From Methylosarcina fibrata AML-C10 (GTDB lineage: Bacteria; Pseudomonadota; Gammaproteobacteria; Methylococcales; Methylomonadaceae): 64,000 nt of DNA. This document shows positions 23,623-31,090 of this stretch, in pieces. The position numbers and the translations under genes are program-made. The notes under the pieces were generated by a model. The model was not told the DNA's origin and ran no database searches. It was given only the letters and a program-made list of their open reading frames with translations. Within the stretch, counting starts at the first letter, position 1, and each line of letters begins with the position of its first letter. The stretch spans positions 1,447,902 through 1,511,901 of the forward strand of contig NZ_KB889965.1 in the NCBI RefSeq assembly GCF_000372865.1, written 5' to 3'.

Positions 23623-24501
23623 ATGCTGATACTCGCCTTTCCGGATTATCTTGACCAGACCCGGGCTCTTGCAGCTCATTTGCAAGCGCCTGTCGCCGAA
23701 GTGTATCTGCACCGTTTTCCCGACGGCGAAAGCTTCGTCGAACTGCCGGCCTCTCTGCCCGAGCACGTCGTTTTCTGCCGCAGCCTGAATCAGCCGAACG
23801 ATAAGCTGGTTGAACTGCTCCTCGGCGCATCGACGGCCAAGGCAATGGGAGCCAAACGGCTTTCGCTGGTGGCGCCTTACCTGTGCTACATGCGCCAGGA
23901 TTTCGCCAACCGCCCGGGAGTCGCCGTCAGCCAGAAGATCATCGGCCGCCTTTTGGCCGATCTGTTCGACGAGGTTCTGACCGTCGATCCCCACTTGCAC
24001 CGGACTCCGACGCTCGCTCAGGCCATTCCCTGCAAAACGCCGGTGACGCTGTCCGCCTCCGACGCCATCGCCGGGTTTCTCGCCGGACAATTCGAACAGG
24101 CGCTGCTTTTGGGGCCTGACAGCGAGTCGGAACAATGGGTGGCATCGATCGGGAAGAAAACCGGCTTTGATTACGCCGTAGCTACGAAAAAGCGGCTGGG
24201 CGACAAGGAAATCGAACTTACCCTGCCCGAGCGCGATTATCGAGGTCAACCCGTCGTCATCGTCGACGACATGGCCAGCACCGGCAGAACGCTGGCTTCG
24301 GCATCGAGAAGTTTACAGGCGCAAGCGGCCCCCGCCGTCTATGCCGTGGTCACCCATGCGGTCTTTTGCGGCGATGCCGAGGCACAAATCCGTCAAGCCG
24401 GCGTCCAGGCCGTCTGGAGCACCGACAGCATCAATCACCCGACTTCACGCATCCGGCTCGGTCCACTGCTGGCCGAAGCTCTGGCCGCTCTCCGCTCTTG
24501 A
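23623..24501 (+). CDS. ribose-phosphate pyrophosphokinase-like protein
   Basis: A 292-residue PRPP synthetase homologue, shorter than the usual 310-320. It has the N-terminal subdomain FPDGESFVELP, an APYLCYMRQDF loop, TVDPHLHR (metal/ribose-5-phosphate region) and the PRPP-binding signature VVIVDDMASTGRTLASAS. It resembles the divergent synthetases seen in archaea and in some bacteria beside the AMP-phosphorylase-type gene. It likely forms a two-gene operon with the preceding phosphorylase. Either true PRPP synthesis or a related transfer onto ribose phosphates is possible. A strong hairpin 75 bp after the stop should end the transcript. Confidence 0.87.
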   Translation: MLILAFPDYLDQTRALAAHLQAPVAEVYLHRFPDGESFVELPASLPEHVVFCRSLNQPNDKLVELLLGASTAKAMGAKRLSLVAPYLCYMRQDFANRPGVAVSQKIIGRLLADLFDEVLTVDPHLHRTPTLAQAIPCKTPVTLSASDAIAGFLAGQFEQALLLGPDSESEQWVASIGKKTGFDYAVATKKRLGDKEIELTLPERDYRGQPVVIVDDMASTGRTLASASRSLQAQAAPAVYAVVTHAVFCGDAEAQIRQAGVQAVWSTDSINHPTSRIRLGPLLAEALAALRS

Positions 24502-24575
24502 TCCGGCCCGATGGCGTCTTGATCCGGATTTGCCATGGACACGGCAGAAGAGACTGATTTACATTTCCCGTAACA

Positions 24576-24606
24576 GACCTGTCAGGTTTTAGAAACCTGG
24601 CAGGTC
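24576..24606. terminator. 14-bp palindromic hairpin between convergent genes
   Basis: GACCTGTCAGGTTT pairs with AAACCTGGCAGGTC (one T-G wobble) around a 3-nt loop. It lies midway between the ends of the phosphorylase/PRPP operon and the esterase gene, so it can serve both strands as a terminator. The CCTGTCAGGTTT core resembles a palindrome that recurs in many bacterial genomes, so it may also be a dispersed repeat. Confidence 0.75.
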
Positions 24607-24628
24607 CTTATTCATGCGGCCTGTCTTG

Positions 24629-25768
24629 CTACCTCTGAGAAATTGAAATCGAAACTTTCGCCGGCGCGCTGCTCAAGCTGCCGTTGTTCGCCGTAAAGGT
24701 AAAGCTGTCCGTACCGGTCACATTGCGCGTCGGCGTATAAGTCAATACAGAGCCGGAAAGTGAGCTTAGCGTTCCTTTAAGCGGTTGCGTGGCAATGCTG
24801 TAGGTCAAAGAATTGCCTTCCGGATCGGAACCGCTCAGCGTAATGGTTTTGGCGGTATTTTTCTTGATTCTCACGCTCTGAGTATTGGCGGTGGGCGCTA
24901 AATTCGACGGTGTTTCCACGCCCATGACCCGATCAAGAAAAGCCTCGATATATGCGGCGACGGTCGGGTTCGGGGTTGAGCTCTCCTGAGTGCTGCCTAT
25001 GTTGAGAAACAGCTTGACGTCGCCATGGCCGCTTCCGGAAACGAGGTGATACTCGCTGTCGGCGCCTGCGCCAAGCAAAGCGGTATTCAAATCCCGGGAA
25101 GCCTGCCAGGGTGCGAGCGTATCCTTGTCACCGGCAATCAACAGAGTCATCAGGGCGCCCGTAGTTACGTAATTGATGGGATTGGCGTTTTGATAATTGC
25201 CGGCTCCGGCATAAGCCTGGTAATTGGTCAGACTGCTCCCCGCCAGAAGATCGTAGCTGTAAACGCCGCTGGTTCCGATCATCGCCACGATCGGCGCGGC
25301 AGGATAAGCCGTGGAACCACCGAACCCGCCGGAAACATTTTGCGCCAGAGAGGCCAGCATGCCGAGATGTCCGCCGGCAGAGTGTCCGTAAATAATGAAC
25401 TCCTGCGCTCCGTAATTGGTTTGCAGATAGTTGAGCAATCGGAGAATATTGTCCGGGTCGGTCGGATATTGGGCCGGGGTGGGGTATTCCATATTGACGG
25501 ATGGAAATCCATGGTCACGGAACCATTTTGCCTCGTTGGCAAATTGTTCTTTCTGTCCTCCGATCCATCCGCCGCCGTGAACGACGAGCACAAAGGTATC
25601 GGGAAACCCTTTTGCCGTATAAAAATCGAATATCTGTTTAGGATCGCTTCCATAAGATACATTGGCCAGATCCGTCGAAGGCAATCGGTCATTACAGGAT
25701 AACGCAGAGGAAAACATGGCAATTCCTGCATACACAATGGCCAGGAATTTTTTATTATGTTTTTTCAT
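24629..25768 (-). CDS. secreted alpha/beta-hydrolase (esterase/lipase) with Ig-like C-terminus
   Basis: A 379-residue exported esterase-like protein. The N-terminus KKFLAIVYAGIAMFSSALSC is a signal sequence; Cys25 may be a lipid anchor, though the lipobox ALSC is not canonical. The hydrolase domain has HGGGWIGG (oxyanion, BD-FAE/HSL-like), GHSAGGHLG with the nucleophile Ser, AGDKDTLAPW with the Asp and SGSGHGD with the His. After residue 290 a cadherin/Ig-like domain follows (SVRIKKNTAKTITLSGSDPEG to the end FTFTANNGSLSSAPAKVS), a type often used for surface attachment. The substrate is unknown. Confidence 0.86.
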   Translation of the reverse strand: MKKHNKKFLAIVYAGIAMFSSALSCNDRLPSTDLANVSYGSDPKQIFDFYTAKGFPDTFVLVVHGGGWIGGQKEQFANEAKWFRDHGFPSVNMEYPTPAQYPTDPDNILRLLNYLQTNYGAQEFIIYGHSAGGHLGMLASLAQNVSGGFGGSTAYPAAPIVAMIGTSGVYSYDLLAGSSLTNYQAYAGAGNYQNANPINYVTTGALMTLLIAGDKDTLAPWQASRDLNTALLGAGADSEYHLVSGSGHGDVKLFLNIGSTQESSTPNPTVAAYIEAFLDRVMGVETPSNLAPTANTQSVRIKKNTAKTITLSGSDPEGNSLTYSIATQPLKGTLSSLSGSVLTYTPTRNVTGTDSFTFTANNGSLSSAPAKVSISISQR

Positions 25769-26347
25769 AAGGCATTTCCTTTATGGAATTTAAATTAAGA
25801 CTGGAAGTATATAACGGGCATCTTAAGTGGAGCTTACGCGAATCATGGCCTTGTAAAGGACACTTGAAGAGACGGAGAATGCCGGAGAGGAATGGAAATA
25901 AAATCAGTGACGCGTCCTGGTTAGCGCCAATACCTGCCGGCCACCCCAGCCGTTACACCCTGGCGTATTTTGCGGAACCTATGGAGTCTTCAACCAGGAC
26001 GCCGTCAATTGTCGTTTGCCTGGCATGAAAGAATGACCCGGGATAACGTCCGCGATCTTGTGGTGATCAAAGTGTCGGCACGGACTCGTTTCAGCCTTTA
26101 TTTTGCCTGACTTTCAAAGCCGGCTTTTTATCCTTGGGCCAACGGCTGCGGAGTTGTCAATCAAACGGATCTTTTTATTCGCCATTTTCAAGGATTTGAA
26201 GGCGCCAAGAAAAACTTCGGCATGCCGATTGTCTGATTTATTGTTTTCCGGGACGGGAGTGAATTTGGAGAAACAGGATCGCCGGTTTACCATGCTTGAT
26301 CGAAAGCTAGTAAACCGGCGACGAGAGGTAGTTTTTCGAAGCAACTC
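25769..26347. other. 579-bp non-coding region
   Basis: It lies upstream of the esterase gene and downstream of the beta-propeller gene, which are both on the minus strand. Short frames exist on both strands (26103-26351 and 26114-26344) but lack ribosome sites and overlap each other. It should hold the esterase promoter and the end of the propeller transcript. Confidence 0.45.
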
Positions 26348-27934
26348 TTAATTGGTCACGTTAAAACTGTGCTCCGCGGAGGTGGAAAGGCCGCTCGAAG
26401 TGTTGATGATCGAAAAGCCTCTCGGGCCGGTCGGTGCGCCGCTCAAGATGTTCAGGTTCAGTTTGACCGCGGTGGAACTCACATACTCTACCGATTCGAT
26501 CGCGCACCCTGCCGGACGAGGCAACACGGCCGCGGTGAAGTCGGGCTCGAATCCGGAACCGGTCAGGGTGACGGTCACTTTTGTACCCTTCTGGCCTGAA
26601 GCCGGCGAAATGCTGGAAATTGCGGGTCCTTCACAGGCATCGCCGGTGCCGTCGTTATCGCTGTCGATCTGGTCGGCGTTCGCTACGGCCGGGCAATTAT
26701 CCAGAGCATCGGCAATGCCGTCCGCATCGCCGTCGGGATCGGCTACCGGCACGTCGACGGCCAGCAACGTCCAGGCATTTTTATCGGTAGGCAGCGTGGC
26801 GACGACTTGCTCCAGCGCGGTGTCGATCACCGATACCGTGCCGTCGGGCGGATTGGCTACGAAAGCGCGGCTGCCGATGCTGTCCAGAACCGTCCAGTAA
26901 GGACCTGTGCCTACGGGGATTTTTTTCGTTACCGACAGCGTGGGAACGTCGATGACCACGGTCGAATTGCTGTTGGCCGGCGAAAGATAAGCTTTCTGGC
27001 TATCTGGCGACACCACGATCTCCCAGGGCGTCGGGCCCACGGCCAGCGTAGCCAGTACGGGATGCTCTCCGGTAGGCGATGTGTCGTTGCCGCCGTTATA
27101 CCACCAGTCCCACCAATCCCACCAATCATTTGAATTGCCCGAATTGCTGCTGCTTTCCATTTCGGTCGTGTCGACAATCGATACGGTCCCGTCGCCGTGA
27201 TTGACCACGAACACCTTGGTGCCGTCGGGCGATATGTTCAGATTGACCGGCGAATTGCCGACCGGCGTCTTCGCTATAACGGACTGTGTCGCCAGATCCA
27301 CCGTGGCCAAAGAATTTTCCCCCCAAACGCAGATATAGATCCGGCTGCCGTCCGGAGAGAGCACCATGCCGGTGGGATACGAACCCACTTTGAGTGTTTT
27401 TTTGACCGTATGACTGGCCACCTCGATGATATCGACTTTGTTGGAATCCCTGCCGCCGACATAAACGTATTGACCGTCCGGCGTCGCATTGATGAATCTG
27501 GGATTGTCCGAGACGCCGATGGTTTTGATGACGGTGTTGGTGGCGGTGTCGATTACCGACACCGTGTTCTCTTTATTATTGGACACATACACTTCGGATC
27601 CGTCCGGAGTGATCGTGGAAAATTCGGGTTCGTTGCCGACGGGCACCGAGGCCAGAACGGTATTGGATTCGGTATCGATTACCGAAACGAAATCCCCTTC
27701 CCTGTTGTTGACATAGACTCTGGTACCGTCGGGGCTGGCGGCCAGACGGGTGGGGTGCCCACCGCCGACCAGAATGGTTTTGAGCACCGTGTTGCTGCCC
27801 GGATCCACCACGCTGACGGTGCCGGGCACCGTATTGTTTGCTACATAGGTCAACGTTTTGGTCGCCGCTCCGGCAACCTGGGCGCCTTCCAGAATCAAGA
27901 GAAGCGACAATGCGGATATCTGTGAAATTTTCAT
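26348..27934 (-). CDS. exported YVTN beta-propeller protein with Trp-rich insert, Ca-binding repeats and IPT domain
   Basis: A 528-residue secreted protein of the YVTN/SMP-30-like beta-propeller class. A signal peptide covers residues 1-23 (ending VAGAA). About eight blade repeats of the form VSVIDTATNTVIKTIGV plus SPDGTRVYV follow. In the sixth blade an unusual insert reads NDWWDWWDWWYNGGND, with seven Trp in fourteen residues. After the propeller come thrombospondin type 3-like Asp-rich repeats (DPDGDADGIADALDNCP, DSDNDGTGDAC) that should bind calcium, then an IPT/TIG domain (ISSISPASGQKGTKVTVTLT). Such proteins act at the cell surface in adhesion or matrix; ligand unknown. It is probably monocistronic. 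Confidence 0.9.
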   Translation of the reverse strand: MKISQISALSLLLILEGAQVAGAATKTLTYVANNTVPGTVSVVDPGSNTVLKTILVGGGHPTRLAASPDGTRVYVNNREGDFVSVIDTESNTVLASVPVGNEPEFSTITPDGSEVYVSNNKENTVSVIDTATNTVIKTIGVSDNPRFINATPDGQYVYVGGRDSNKVDIIEVASHTVKKTLKVGSYPTGMVLSPDGSRIYICVWGENSLATVDLATQSVIAKTPVGNSPVNLNISPDGTKVFVVNHGDGTVSIVDTTEMESSSNSGNSNDWWDWWDWWYNGGNDTSPTGEHPVLATLAVGPTPWEIVVSPDSQKAYLSPANSNSTVVIDVPTLSVTKKIPVGTGPYWTVLDSIGSRAFVANPPDGTVSVIDTALEQVVATLPTDKNAWTLLAVDVPVADPDGDADGIADALDNCPAVANADQIDSDNDGTGDACEGPAISSISPASGQKGTKVTVTLTGSGFEPDFTAAVLPRPAGCAIESVEYVSSTAVKLNLNILSGAPTGPRGFSIINTSSGLSTSAEHSFNVTN

Positions 27935-28448
27935 ACCGTGTTTTCCTTAAACTTCAATGTTAATCACTGGCAACCGAACCGATCGAGCGTGTCCATGGAT
28001 TTTGACCACCAACCTCCTTCCTGGAATACGTTTCCGACGACTCTCTCCGGTTCTTACCGTCAGGTCATTTCGACGTCAATGTATCTCCTCCACTGCTTCC
28101 AATTCCTGAAAGACCGCTTCCGAGAACATGGGATCAGTGTAAATTAACCCTGTATCTTGAACATCCGGCGAATGTCACGATTTTTATGGTGATTTGTCCC
28201 TCGGAATTTCGGTACGAATCGGGATCTTTGTCCCATCGGCCAGCGGCTGAAAAACCGAAGCTATAACGGAAATTTATAGAAATGGGAAGTTTGGCGATGG
28301 GCTTCGTCGAATCATGCCGGAAAGAAGCCGGCAGTTCCTTGATGCCGAACTGTTTGTTAACATGGGTAGAGGCGAATTCATTCGCCCTCCCCGTGATATG
28401 AAAATGTTCCAGGAATTTCCGCTGCAAAAGCGGCGCCGACCGGCGGCG
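27935..28448. other. 514-bp non-coding region
   Basis: It lies between the propeller gene start and the end of the SIMPL gene. No convincing ORF or RNA gene was seen. It carries the short palindrome listed at 28371-28386 and should hold the propeller gene promoter in its left part. Confidence 0.45.
28371..28386. repeat. GGCGAATTCATTCGCC palindrome
   Basis: Arms GGCGAAT and ATTCGCC are perfect around a 2-nt centre and sit in a wider imperfect palindrome (AGAGG and CCTCC at the flanks). Part of it recurs in inverse orientation near 38038-38051 (CGAATGAATTCGCC). Copies in two intergenic spots suggest a dispersed repeat family. Confidence 0.45.
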
Positions 28449-29168
28449 TCAATCCGACAAATAATATTCCACGGTGGAGACAACCCGGATTTTCTTGATG
28501 TGCGGATTGTTTTTGTCGCGGGGATCAATCGTGAACTGTCCCTGCGAGGCCTGCTTGATTTTTCCGAGCTTGCTGTTCGAGTCTTCCGCAAACTTGAGCG
28601 CCACCTCCCTGGCCTTGGTGGTGGCTTCCTGGATCATTTCCGGCTTTATCTGGTTCAGACCGGTGAACAGATATTCGGTCGGATTGTCGTAGTCTCCGCC
28701 TTTAAAGGCGATTCCCTGCTTGCCCAATTCCGCCAGATCGTTCATCGCCTGCCGGACTTTGGCGACTTTCGAGGAATAGACCGTCACCGTCTGCACGGCG
28801 GTATAGCGAAATTCGTCCTTCTGGCCGCTGCTGAACTGCTGGGCCGACTTGTCGGTAATCGACGGCAGGGAATGGGAAATTTCGGCCGGCTCGATGCCTT
28901 TCGAAACCAGAAAGCCTTCGATGCTCTTTTTGGCGGTTTCGATCGATTTGTAAAGCGCGCCGAGGTCGTTGCCGGCCTCGGTGAAAACGATCGGCCAGAT
29001 CACGATATCGGCCGGCATCTCCCGCTCGGACAGGCCTTTGACCGCAACACTGCGCTCGTACTCCTTGAAGTGGACGGCGGCCCGGCCGAGCAGATAACCC
29101 AGCGAGGTCAGTCCAAGAAAAATCGACAATCCCAAAATCACGGCGTTTGCTTTATTGGTTTGATTCAT
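28449..29168 (-). CDS. SIMPL-domain (DUF541) membrane-anchored protein
   Basis: A 239-residue protein with one N-terminal transmembrane segment (VILGLSIFLGLTSLGYLLG) and a periplasmic SIMPL/DUF541 domain. Typical features are VAVKGLSEREMPADI at the domain start, KKSIEGFLVSKGIEPAEIS, YTAVQTVTVYSSKVAKV and LNQIKPEMIQEATTKAREVA, ending KIRVVSTVEYYLSD. The family has been linked to oxidative and surface stress, but no activity is defined. ATG at 29168 has an AAGGGG site; a seven-residue upstream extension starts with TTG and is less likely. It stands alone. Confidence 0.9.
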   Translation of the reverse strand: MNQTNKANAVILGLSIFLGLTSLGYLLGRAAVHFKEYERSVAVKGLSEREMPADIVIWPIVFTEAGNDLGALYKSIETAKKSIEGFLVSKGIEPAEISHSLPSITDKSAQQFSSGQKDEFRYTAVQTVTVYSSKVAKVRQAMNDLAELGKQGIAFKGGDYDNPTEYLFTGLNQIKPEMIQEATTKAREVALKFAEDSNSKLGKIKQASQGQFTIDPRDKNNPHIKKIRVVSTVEYYLSD

Positions 29169-29503
29169 TGCTTGGCCCCTTCTGTTCAATAAGATATTTC
29201 TCCGGTCCTCGACAGTCTCCGGAATCGGCTGCTATTAAATACCAACACAGACTTATTCACCAGTTTTTTACTTCATTTTCGGGCCGGTACCGTAGCTTAC
29301 AGGCGTGCGTAGCTAATCGTTACGATGGGATTCGTGCCTCAACCCATGGTTCTACCAGGCTGGTGCGCGAATAGGATAGAGTGGGACACCGGGAACGGTG
29401 AGCCAGGATTGGTTCGAAACGGAGAAGGAGGCGGTGGCTGCTTGCGGAAAGCAATGCGAGGCCAAATTGAAAAAAGGGTATCGGTCCAGAATATGGAGCA
29501 GCT
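29169..29503. other. 335-bp non-coding region
   Basis: Between the SIMPL gene and the end of the mrr gene. No gene is supported. The right side becomes lower in GC, continuing into mrr. Confidence 0.4.
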
Positions 29504-30418
29504 TTATTCGAAGAACTCTTCGTCGATCTTTCTGATATGGATAGTGTCTTCAATCCTGCATCCGACATTATGGCGGATCATAAGCCTAGCGAACTGTTCG
29601 CCATCAATGAGAACAATTCTTTTGCTTAAAAAGTCTGCGGTTTCCTTGGCTGACGGCGAGAAAGTCGAGGTCGTCACAAACAGGCCCTTTGCAGCTTTAT
29701 GACGGTCGAGACTTCCGAAGAAGTCGCGAATATCACCCGCTCCAACGGTGTTGCCTGCGGCGTATCGTTTGGCTTGAATGTAAACGCGGTCCAAGCCAAG
29801 CGCGTCCTGATCGATGACGCCATCAACTCCGTTATCGCCGCTACGCCCTAAAGCCCGCCCTGCCTCGGTTGCCGATCCACCATAACCCATGTTCAGGAGC
29901 AAATTGACGATAAGCCGCTCAAAGAAATCCGATGGTGAATTACGGATACGGTCCAGCAAGTCTTGCGCAAGAGAGGCTTCGATCTTGCGATGAGCCTCCC
30001 TCATGATCTCATCGGGAGTTTGTTTTTGATCCTCCAAAGAAGAAACGTCGCCATCCATCCTGTCTTCCGTTGTATTTGTTCTTTCTCTGAATTGTTTGAA
30101 TTCCTCATATTGCAAAAGGAATGCGTTATCTATACGGGAGGGGCTGGACTTCAAGGCATCCAAACCTCGCTGCGTGATCTTGAAATGGCCGCGCCGCGTG
30201 ATCGCCACAAGACCAGCCTTGTTGAGATAGGATTTTGCCCAATGGACACGGTTGCTGAATAAAGTTTGCTTCCCGGAAGGCAGGAGTTCCGTGCGTTCAT
30301 CAGGAGTAAGTCCTAACTGATTGGCAAGTTCTTCGACCACCTGCCCGATCCGGATTTCGCCTTTCGATGAAGTCTGGAGGACGGGAAGCATGAGTGACTG
30401 GTAGTCTGGTATAGGCAT
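29504..30418 (-). CDS. mrr: Mrr-type restriction endonuclease
   Basis: A 304-residue Mrr homologue, a type IV-like nuclease that cuts modified or foreign DNA. The N-terminal winged-helix domain is recognisable: YQSLMLPVLQTSSKGEIRI, then WAKSYLNKAGLVAITRRGHF. The C-terminal PD-(D/E)XK nuclease has FFERLIVNLLLNMGYGG, GDNGVDGVIDQD and VYIQAKRYA, where the Asp and the Gln-x-Lys are the metal and catalytic positions. No methyltransferase gene is adjacent, as expected for Mrr. Base composition is lower in GC than most neighbours, which suggests transfer. It is followed by a decayed addiction module. Confidence 0.92.
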   Translation of the reverse strand: MPIPDYQSLMLPVLQTSSKGEIRIGQVVEELANQLGLTPDERTELLPSGKQTLFSNRVHWAKSYLNKAGLVAITRRGHFKITQRGLDALKSSPSRIDNAFLLQYEEFKQFRERTNTTEDRMDGDVSSLEDQKQTPDEIMREAHRKIEASLAQDLLDRIRNSPSDFFERLIVNLLLNMGYGGSATEAGRALGRSGDNGVDGVIDQDALGLDRVYIQAKRYAAGNTVGAGDIRDFFGSLDRHKAAKGLFVTTSTFSPSAKETADFLSKRIVLIDGEQFARLMIRHNVGCRIEDTIHIRKIDEEFFE

Positions 30419-30449
30419 GCCGATTCTTTGCTATTGGGTTCGGATATTA

Positions 30450-30828
30450 TTATGAATAGCGCTCGGTATTATTCCGCAGCCATTGCTCAAGCGCTTCAAA
30501 TCTGAATTCATTCCCTTCGTATAATTCGGCGAGAAACGCATAAGTGCTTTGCGCGTCGGCGGTGATCTCGACGCCGTTGATCGCCAGAAAGGTATAAACA
30601 CAGGCAAAGGCCGTGCGTTTGTTGCCGTCGATAAAGGGATGGTTTTGCGATAGACTTTCCCACAATGCCGCGGCCTCGCCGATCACATCGGCGTAATAAC
30701 CCGATTGCATACGAAACAACGCCGCCTCAAGCTGGCCCGGATCGCGGATACCGTGCGCACCGCCGTAGATTTCGATTTGGATCCGCATGGATCGCCAGAA
30801 CCTCGGCAACCGTCAGATAATCGGTCAT
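30450..30828 (-). pseudogene. doc: Doc-type (Fic-fold) toxin, frameshifted near the N-terminus
   Basis: The ATG at 30828 overlaps the antitoxin stop as ATGA and gives MTDYLTVAEVLAIHAD, the usual start of death-on-curing proteins. One extra base (GG at 30779-30780, forward strand) then shifts the frame. The rest continues in the next frame as QIEIYGGAHGIRD to the Fic motif NHPFIDGNKRTAF and the C-terminal helix. Intact relatives transfer phosphate to EF-Tu and stop translation. A shorter protein could start inside at MRIQIEIYGG and keep the Fic motif but lose the first helix. It is either an inactivated toxin or a sequencing error. Confidence 0.82.
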
Positions 30829-31052
30829 TTGGCCAGTTTTTCATAAAGATCGGCATAGCGGCCATGACTGGCTTGATAGATGGCCATGACGTGCGCGCGC
30901 GGGCGGGTTTTGCGGTGTTTTTCCAGCAAATCGGCCAAAGCCTCATCGACCAGCGCCTGTATCTGACGACCTTCGGTTTTGGCCAATTCCCGCACCTCGG
31001 CCAATAAGGCTGAATCCACTTGCGTGGCGAATTTTTCGCGAACTTCCGGCAT
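30825..31052 (-). CDS. RHH-like antitoxin paired with the Doc-type toxin
   Basis: A 75-residue protein. Its start, MPEVREKFATQVDSALLAEV, followed by AKTEGRQIQALVDEALADLL, fits a ribbon-helix-helix DNA-binding fold. The C-terminal part (RAHVMAIYQASHGRYADLYEKL) would wrap the toxin. ATG at 31052 has a strong GAGGAGG site; an 11-residue upstream frame is not needed. The stop overlaps the toxin start by 4 bp. A 10-bp perfect inverted repeat just upstream is a likely autoregulatory operator. The antitoxin is intact although its toxin appears frameshifted. Confidence 0.8.
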   Translation of the reverse strand: MPEVREKFATQVDSALLAEVRELAKTEGRQIQALVDEALADLLEKHRKTRPRAHVMAIYQASHGRYADLYEKLAK

Positions 31053-31090
31053 GGCGGCCTCCTCTAAATCAGGTTTTGCGGACATTGCAA

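Follow-up and report, generated by a model that had tools for sequence, protein, structure and literature searches.

Results

A multi-domain YVTN propeller gene

The window analysed here is a 64,000-nt stretch of contig NZ_KB889965.1 from Methylosarcina fibrata AML-C10 (assembly GCF_000372865.1). Its list of open reading frames (ORFs), read together with the translations, shows that the ORF at 26348–27934 on the minus strand, on which every feature of this protein lies, is a real gene encoding a YVTN beta-propeller protein of 528 aa with thrombospondin type 3 and IPT-like parts. The N-terminus is hydrophobic, from which we assign a probable Sec signal peptide to residues 1–23 (27866–27934), and the protein is probably secreted. 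It is followed by a propeller of eight repeats (residues 24–398; 26741–27865), a thrombospondin type 3, calcium-type repeat (residues 399–435; 26630–26740) and an IPT/TIG-like domain (residues 437–513; 26396–26626). Membership in the YVTN family is clear, as TIGR02276 matches eight stretches at 234 bits against a cut-off of 27.85. More specific propeller families score under their cut-offs, namely the PQQ-dependent catabolism-associated beta-propeller TIGR03866 (192.3 bits, cut-off 287.3) and YncE (NF052280; 107 bits, cut-off 400).

A sequence-only reading of this gene had named calcium-binding repeats, an IPT domain and a surface location. The repeats are confirmed by PF02412, which scores 28.3 bits at residues 399–422 against a gathering score of 25, and phmmer additionally matches residues 399–435 to cartilage oligomeric matrix protein. 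The IPT domain is present as a match (PF01833), but at 20.3 bits it falls just below the curated cut-off of 20.9 in this protein, while scoring 21.5 bits in the closest paralog. This architecture can fairly be read as that of a multi-domain propeller that is secreted or located at the surface. We found no description of the protein in the literature searched, nor any work there that combines a propeller, thrombospondin type 3 repeats and a methanotroph. The available text of PMC9291206 places a YVTN gene next to xoxF1; among the nine window proteins scanned with Pfam there is no gene cluster of that type.

Several neighbouring genes can be described. Downstream, at 24629–25768 on the minus strand, lies a gene whose esterase-like product (BD-FAE) carries a bacterial Ig domain. 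One SIMPL-family (DUF541) gene adjoins the propeller gene (28449–29189) and another is found some 2 kb from a paralog pair (L082:3879–4628); two paralogs also have fn3-domain proteins encoded nearby (L084:3365–4720 and L085:7826–8740). Inspection by eye of four regions, which surround six other paralogs, showed no gene adjoining every copy. The minus strand at 29504–31085 of the window carries a gene for an Mrr-type restriction endonuclease beside a Fic/DOC gene (PF02661, 45.9 bits, cut-off 24), together with a small ORF that has a sub-threshold match to a ribbon-helix-helix antitoxin family (PF20605, 24.4 bits, cut-off 27.2).

A tryptophan-rich tandem repeat within an enlarged loop

The sixth of the eight YVTN repeats is interrupted, at the place given in the sequence-only reading, by the insert NDWWDWWDWWYNGGND (residues 269–284; 27083–27130). 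That reading counted seven Trp in 14 residues; the insert actually holds six, of ten in the whole protein. Its core, WWDWWDWW (residues 271–278; 27101–27124), lies inside a 9-bp tandem repeat at 27101–27127 that has 3.0 copies and 94% matches. Each unit reads GAT or GAC followed by TGG and TGG, and one synonymous base differs between units. The repeat sits where one of the blade-6 hairpins is extended by Ser/Asn/Gly-rich sequence, and the enlarged hairpin loop, delimited by loop lengths in the alignment and by low pLDDT, spans residues 257–292 (27059–27166). At 36 residues, it is larger than the stretch to which attention was originally drawn.

The density of tryptophan is extreme, as had been claimed, and exceeds what composition would give by chance. 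Six Trp within eight residues were never seen in 20,000 shuffles of the protein, a null that leaves out repeat slippage and so measures composition only, and when the window's 125 ORFs that start with ATG and reach 100 aa are compared, with the propeller gene and spurious ORFs included, the next-highest density is three in eight residues. An origin by copying from elsewhere in the genome was rejected, as the insert DNA occurs only once in the genome, the best other match having an E value of 0.39.

Predicted structure of the propeller

The full protein, folded with AlphaFold2 with no alignment, reaches a pLDDT of 65.6, with residues 260–291 under 50. Residues 24–398 folded alone give 32 strands at a pLDDT of 83.2 and a pTM of 0.83, and one segment of this model falls under pLDDT 50, model residues 237–267, which correspond to residues 260–290 of the protein. 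Blocks of residues within the loop score 41–48, and the other propeller blocks score 77–96, except for two, which score 61 at the edge of the loop and 59 in blade 7. Eight repeats by sequence, the 32 predicted strands and the fits to known eight-bladed folds together point to an eight-bladed propeller. In VIA-align, the top rows are chains of cytochrome cd1 (Z 38.7, 2.6 Å over 341 residues), whose domain we take to have eight blades, and the designed eight-bladed protein Tako8 also fits (Z 32.8, 2.1 Å over 296 residues). With the weaker full-length model, the seven-bladed design 7bie ranks high in Foldseek as well. The matches from both programs are matches of fold and say nothing of function.

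In the full-length model, the loop joins strands 250–255 and 293–298, which the repeat pattern would make strands three and four of blade 6. Over residues 269–279 the model draws a short helix, at pLDDT under 50. Burial of the motif, which would count against a binding role, is not seen in the model; a pLDDT under 50 is evidence neither of exposure nor of a bound state, and in a single-sequence fold such a value cannot tell disorder from missing information. The model suggests that the loop is a flexible excursion from its blade.

Outside the loop, three tryptophans are invariant in all 13 aligned proteins described below: Trp304 (27023–27025), Trp347 (26894–26896) and Trp388 (26771–26773). 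In the model they lie at or just before strands 303–308, 348–353 and 390–396, in blades 6, 7 and 8. This strand position usually lines the central opening of a propeller. From their conservation in the alignment, these residues are more likely candidates than the insert for a ligand-binding or structural role shared across the family.

The insert compared with paralogs

The genome holds 39 matches to the protein, counting the gene itself and split pieces, and at least 13 related YVTN proteins (G000:C1, loci L034–L044) are scattered through it singly or in small groups. We aligned the protein with 12 paralogs that are 37–64% identical to it; more distant loci were left out, with L045–L049, which are more distant YVTN proteins or share only the C-terminal part, and an antisense ORF of L043 dropped by eye. 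Two of the paralogs, L039 and L040, lie near 3.94 Mb and 2.58 Mb, are each 498 residues long and show eight differences, so that the 12 paralogs amount to about 11 independent rows. Their likeness suggests a recent event, either duplication or gene conversion. Of the 12 paralogs, nine were found to have a thrombospondin type 3 repeat.

None of the 12 paralogs carries the six Trp or shares the insert at that place, and a conserved family of Trp-rich inserts was thus not found. The loop is 36 residues long in the protein under study, 11 in its most similar paralog and four in the other 11, one of which (L042) has two extra residues immediately ahead of the stretch counted. The paralog with the intermediate loop (L034; G000:C1:4849082–4850602) is 63.8% identical over 503 aligned residues and has the same domains; its 11 loop residues include no Trp. 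The order of these lengths is read from identity alone. On the right side of the insert, the flank NDTS..HPVLA matches this closest paralog in frame.

Beyond this genome, only one of 320 other genomes matched at an E value of 1e-45 or better in a class-level sample of 321, with at most four candidates scored per genome, and because of this the set of related YVTN proteins in this genome looks like a lineage-specific expansion. A protein search of plasmids returned 622 records, the best places all under 60% identity and none covering 80% of the query. A DNA search of plasmids with 24000–28500 of the window returned eight records, seven at 60–80% identity and one at 95–99%; the five listed cover 4–6% of the query, and the 95–99% record is not among them. 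A scan of genome contigs, for which WWDWWDWW was one of six patterns, gave 65 matching stretches, 13 of them confirmed as relatives; among the matches listed, which lie at query residues 344–473, the insert is not covered.

The motif in other genomes

The sequence-only reading had proposed a search for WWDWW in other YVTN proteins. Across 237 genomes of the family, which include no other genome of the genus, the motif occurs at 14 places in 13 genomes, two of the places being in the loop described here, against five places for a reversed control. At the other 12 places, the frame that reads Trp is open for only 9–69 residues, and we rejected them as protein motifs; no credible coding case was found in the other 236 family genomes. 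Of 398 sampled genomes of the phylum, this one alone has the longer pattern WW[DN]WW[DN]WW, at the place described here, against two places for the reversed control. Within its own genome, WWxWW occurs at seven places, two of them in the loop (control, none), and the five others fall in frames of 821 (a WWWWW run), 30, 39, 68 and 143 residues. The 821-residue frame (L080; G000:C1:4234219–4234233) contains KWWWWWND and is apparently unrelated to the propeller. A literature search on WWDWW gave nothing evidently about the motif of this protein.

As a credible coding sequence, the motif is thus absent from the close relatives covered, namely the 12 paralogs and the family genomes of other genera, and among the relatives examined the insert looks private to this copy. 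The underlying DNA is another matter. The pattern WWxWWxWW occurs at 49 places in 26 of the 237 family genomes against 42 for the control, so that DNA of this kind is not rare. We checked 12 such TGGTGGNNNTGGTGGNNNTGGTGG loci, one per genome, from 12 of the other 25 genomes; the Trp frame is open for 6–110 residues, and the longest open frame is Gly-rich in six and not of the Gly-rich kind in six. Given these counts, TGGTGG-type repeat DNA appears to arise readily in the family and often to code for Gly; here it is read as Asp-Trp-Trp.

Discussion

The protein is an ordinary member of its family, a secreted-looking YVTN propeller of eight repeats, and we consider it likely that its Trp-rich insert is a recent, tolerated expansion of a low-complexity loop in which slippage tripled a 9-bp unit. 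In this copy, a hairpin that is already slightly extended in the most similar paralog would have expanded, the blade-6 loop growing from four to 36 residues as a segment rich in Ser, Asn, Gly and Asp. Replication slippage would have carried the 9-bp unit for Asp-Trp-Trp to three copies within a loop that, as an excursion from the blade, could be tolerated. The six tryptophans would most likely be a by-product, or at most confer a mild, non-specific stickiness, and the conserved ligand site of the family, if there is one, would more likely involve the invariant tryptophans of blades 6, 7 and 8. Slippage accounts for the repeat unit; it does not account for the first Asp-Trp-Trp codons or for the rest of the extension. 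In addition, six tryptophans in a secreted loop may be costly, and for that reason their retention may reflect selection.

How the repeat arose could be explained in other ways. Two compensating indels could have shifted Gly-rich DNA into the present frame, and this origin gains some appeal from the next frame, in which the 9-bp unit encodes IGGIGGTGG and the +1 translation reads MIGGIGGTGGITAATT, as well as from the six of 12 family loci with a Gly-rich longest frame. It is nevertheless quite unlikely, as the residues on both sides of the repeat are already rich in Ser, Asn and Gly in the present frame and the other six loci lack a longest frame of the Gly-rich kind; moreover, the in-frame match of the right flank to the closest paralog makes a frame shift unnecessary. 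Repeat DNA is also the usual place for errors of sequencing and assembly, which is what favours an artefact here, but the 528-codon frame is not interrupted in the loop and the genome stands in two contigs at 99.99% completeness, so we give an artefact next to no weight.

Other readings would give the loop a function. The sequence-only reading proposed a specific ligand, which finds no support in an insert that is missing from the 12 aligned paralogs, has no other credible coding case in the family and phylum genomes searched and is written in 9-bp repeat DNA. A broader version, in which the loop is a recently gained, exposed and sticky Asp-Trp-Trp patch that lets this one paralog bind a polysaccharide, a lipid or a hydrophobic surface, is doubtful. 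It would fit the extreme Trp density, the short helix predicted at low pLDDT over residues 269–279 and the multi-domain architecture, and the alternation with Asp and the Ser/Asn/Gly-rich flanks would be expected to keep such a patch soluble. Set against this are the absence of the insert from the 12 aligned paralogs and from the sampled genomes of the family and phylum, and a PDB search with the 31-residue loop that was empty up to an E value of 10, on which we rejected a solved loop of similar sequence. It is very unlikely, though of interest, that the repeat is an adhesive module tuned by slippage, by which a population adjusts the surface stickiness of one propeller paralog; its copy number would shift in steps of three residues with the frame intact.

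Copper or another metal, also suggested in the sequence-only reading, could in principle be bound through Trp or oxidised Trp, as in MopE-type proteins of methanotrophs. We take the organism to be a methane oxidiser because its genome has one match to the pmoA family (PF02461, E 3.2e-128), and this setting counts in favour of copper. Kynurenine, moreover, derives from Trp. In the available text of the work on methanotroph copper proteins, the secreted MopE and the surface protein CorA both bind copper, and the MopE site consists of two His and a kynurenine. NCBIfam additionally returns weak matches to the copper enzyme L-NosZ (NF052460; 108.5 bits, cut-off 700) and to the zinc chaperone AztD (18.3 bits, cut-off 400), but these stretches (residues 33–246 and 33–149) lie outside the insert, fit the repeats that propellers share and are far below the cut-offs. 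A MopE-like site is not evident, since residues 257–290 contain no His (the protein has His at 60, 175, 246, 291 and 522). As the insert is also private and the ten Pfam families listed for the protein include no copper-binding one, we found nothing to support the copper idea and regard it as highly improbable.

Expansion of a tolerant loop by slippage, the reading that we prefer, carries a caution, namely that a striking cluster of residues seen in a single protein can turn out to be repeat DNA within a loop that accepts it. Should the loop have a binding partner after all, it would cleanly exemplify the appearance of a new binding patch within one paralog, with the short-looped sister paralog as a built-in control, and if the repeat were an adhesive module, it would show a propeller family being diversified by a novel route.

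To cytochrome cd1 nitrite reductase and Tako8, the likeness is of fold only, at 15–17% identity, and there is no sign of heme binding here. Set beside MopE and CorA, the copper-binding proteins of methanotrophs, this protein differs in having no Pfam match to a copper family and no His in residues 257–290 of its loop. The best sequence match among solved structures, and the top Foldseek row for the full-length model, is the YVTN propeller of an archaeal surface layer protein (PDB 1l0q, E 6.8e-60). Where that protein carries a PKD domain, the one described here instead has eight repeats, a thrombospondin type 3 repeat, an IPT-like domain and the enlarged loop of blade 6.
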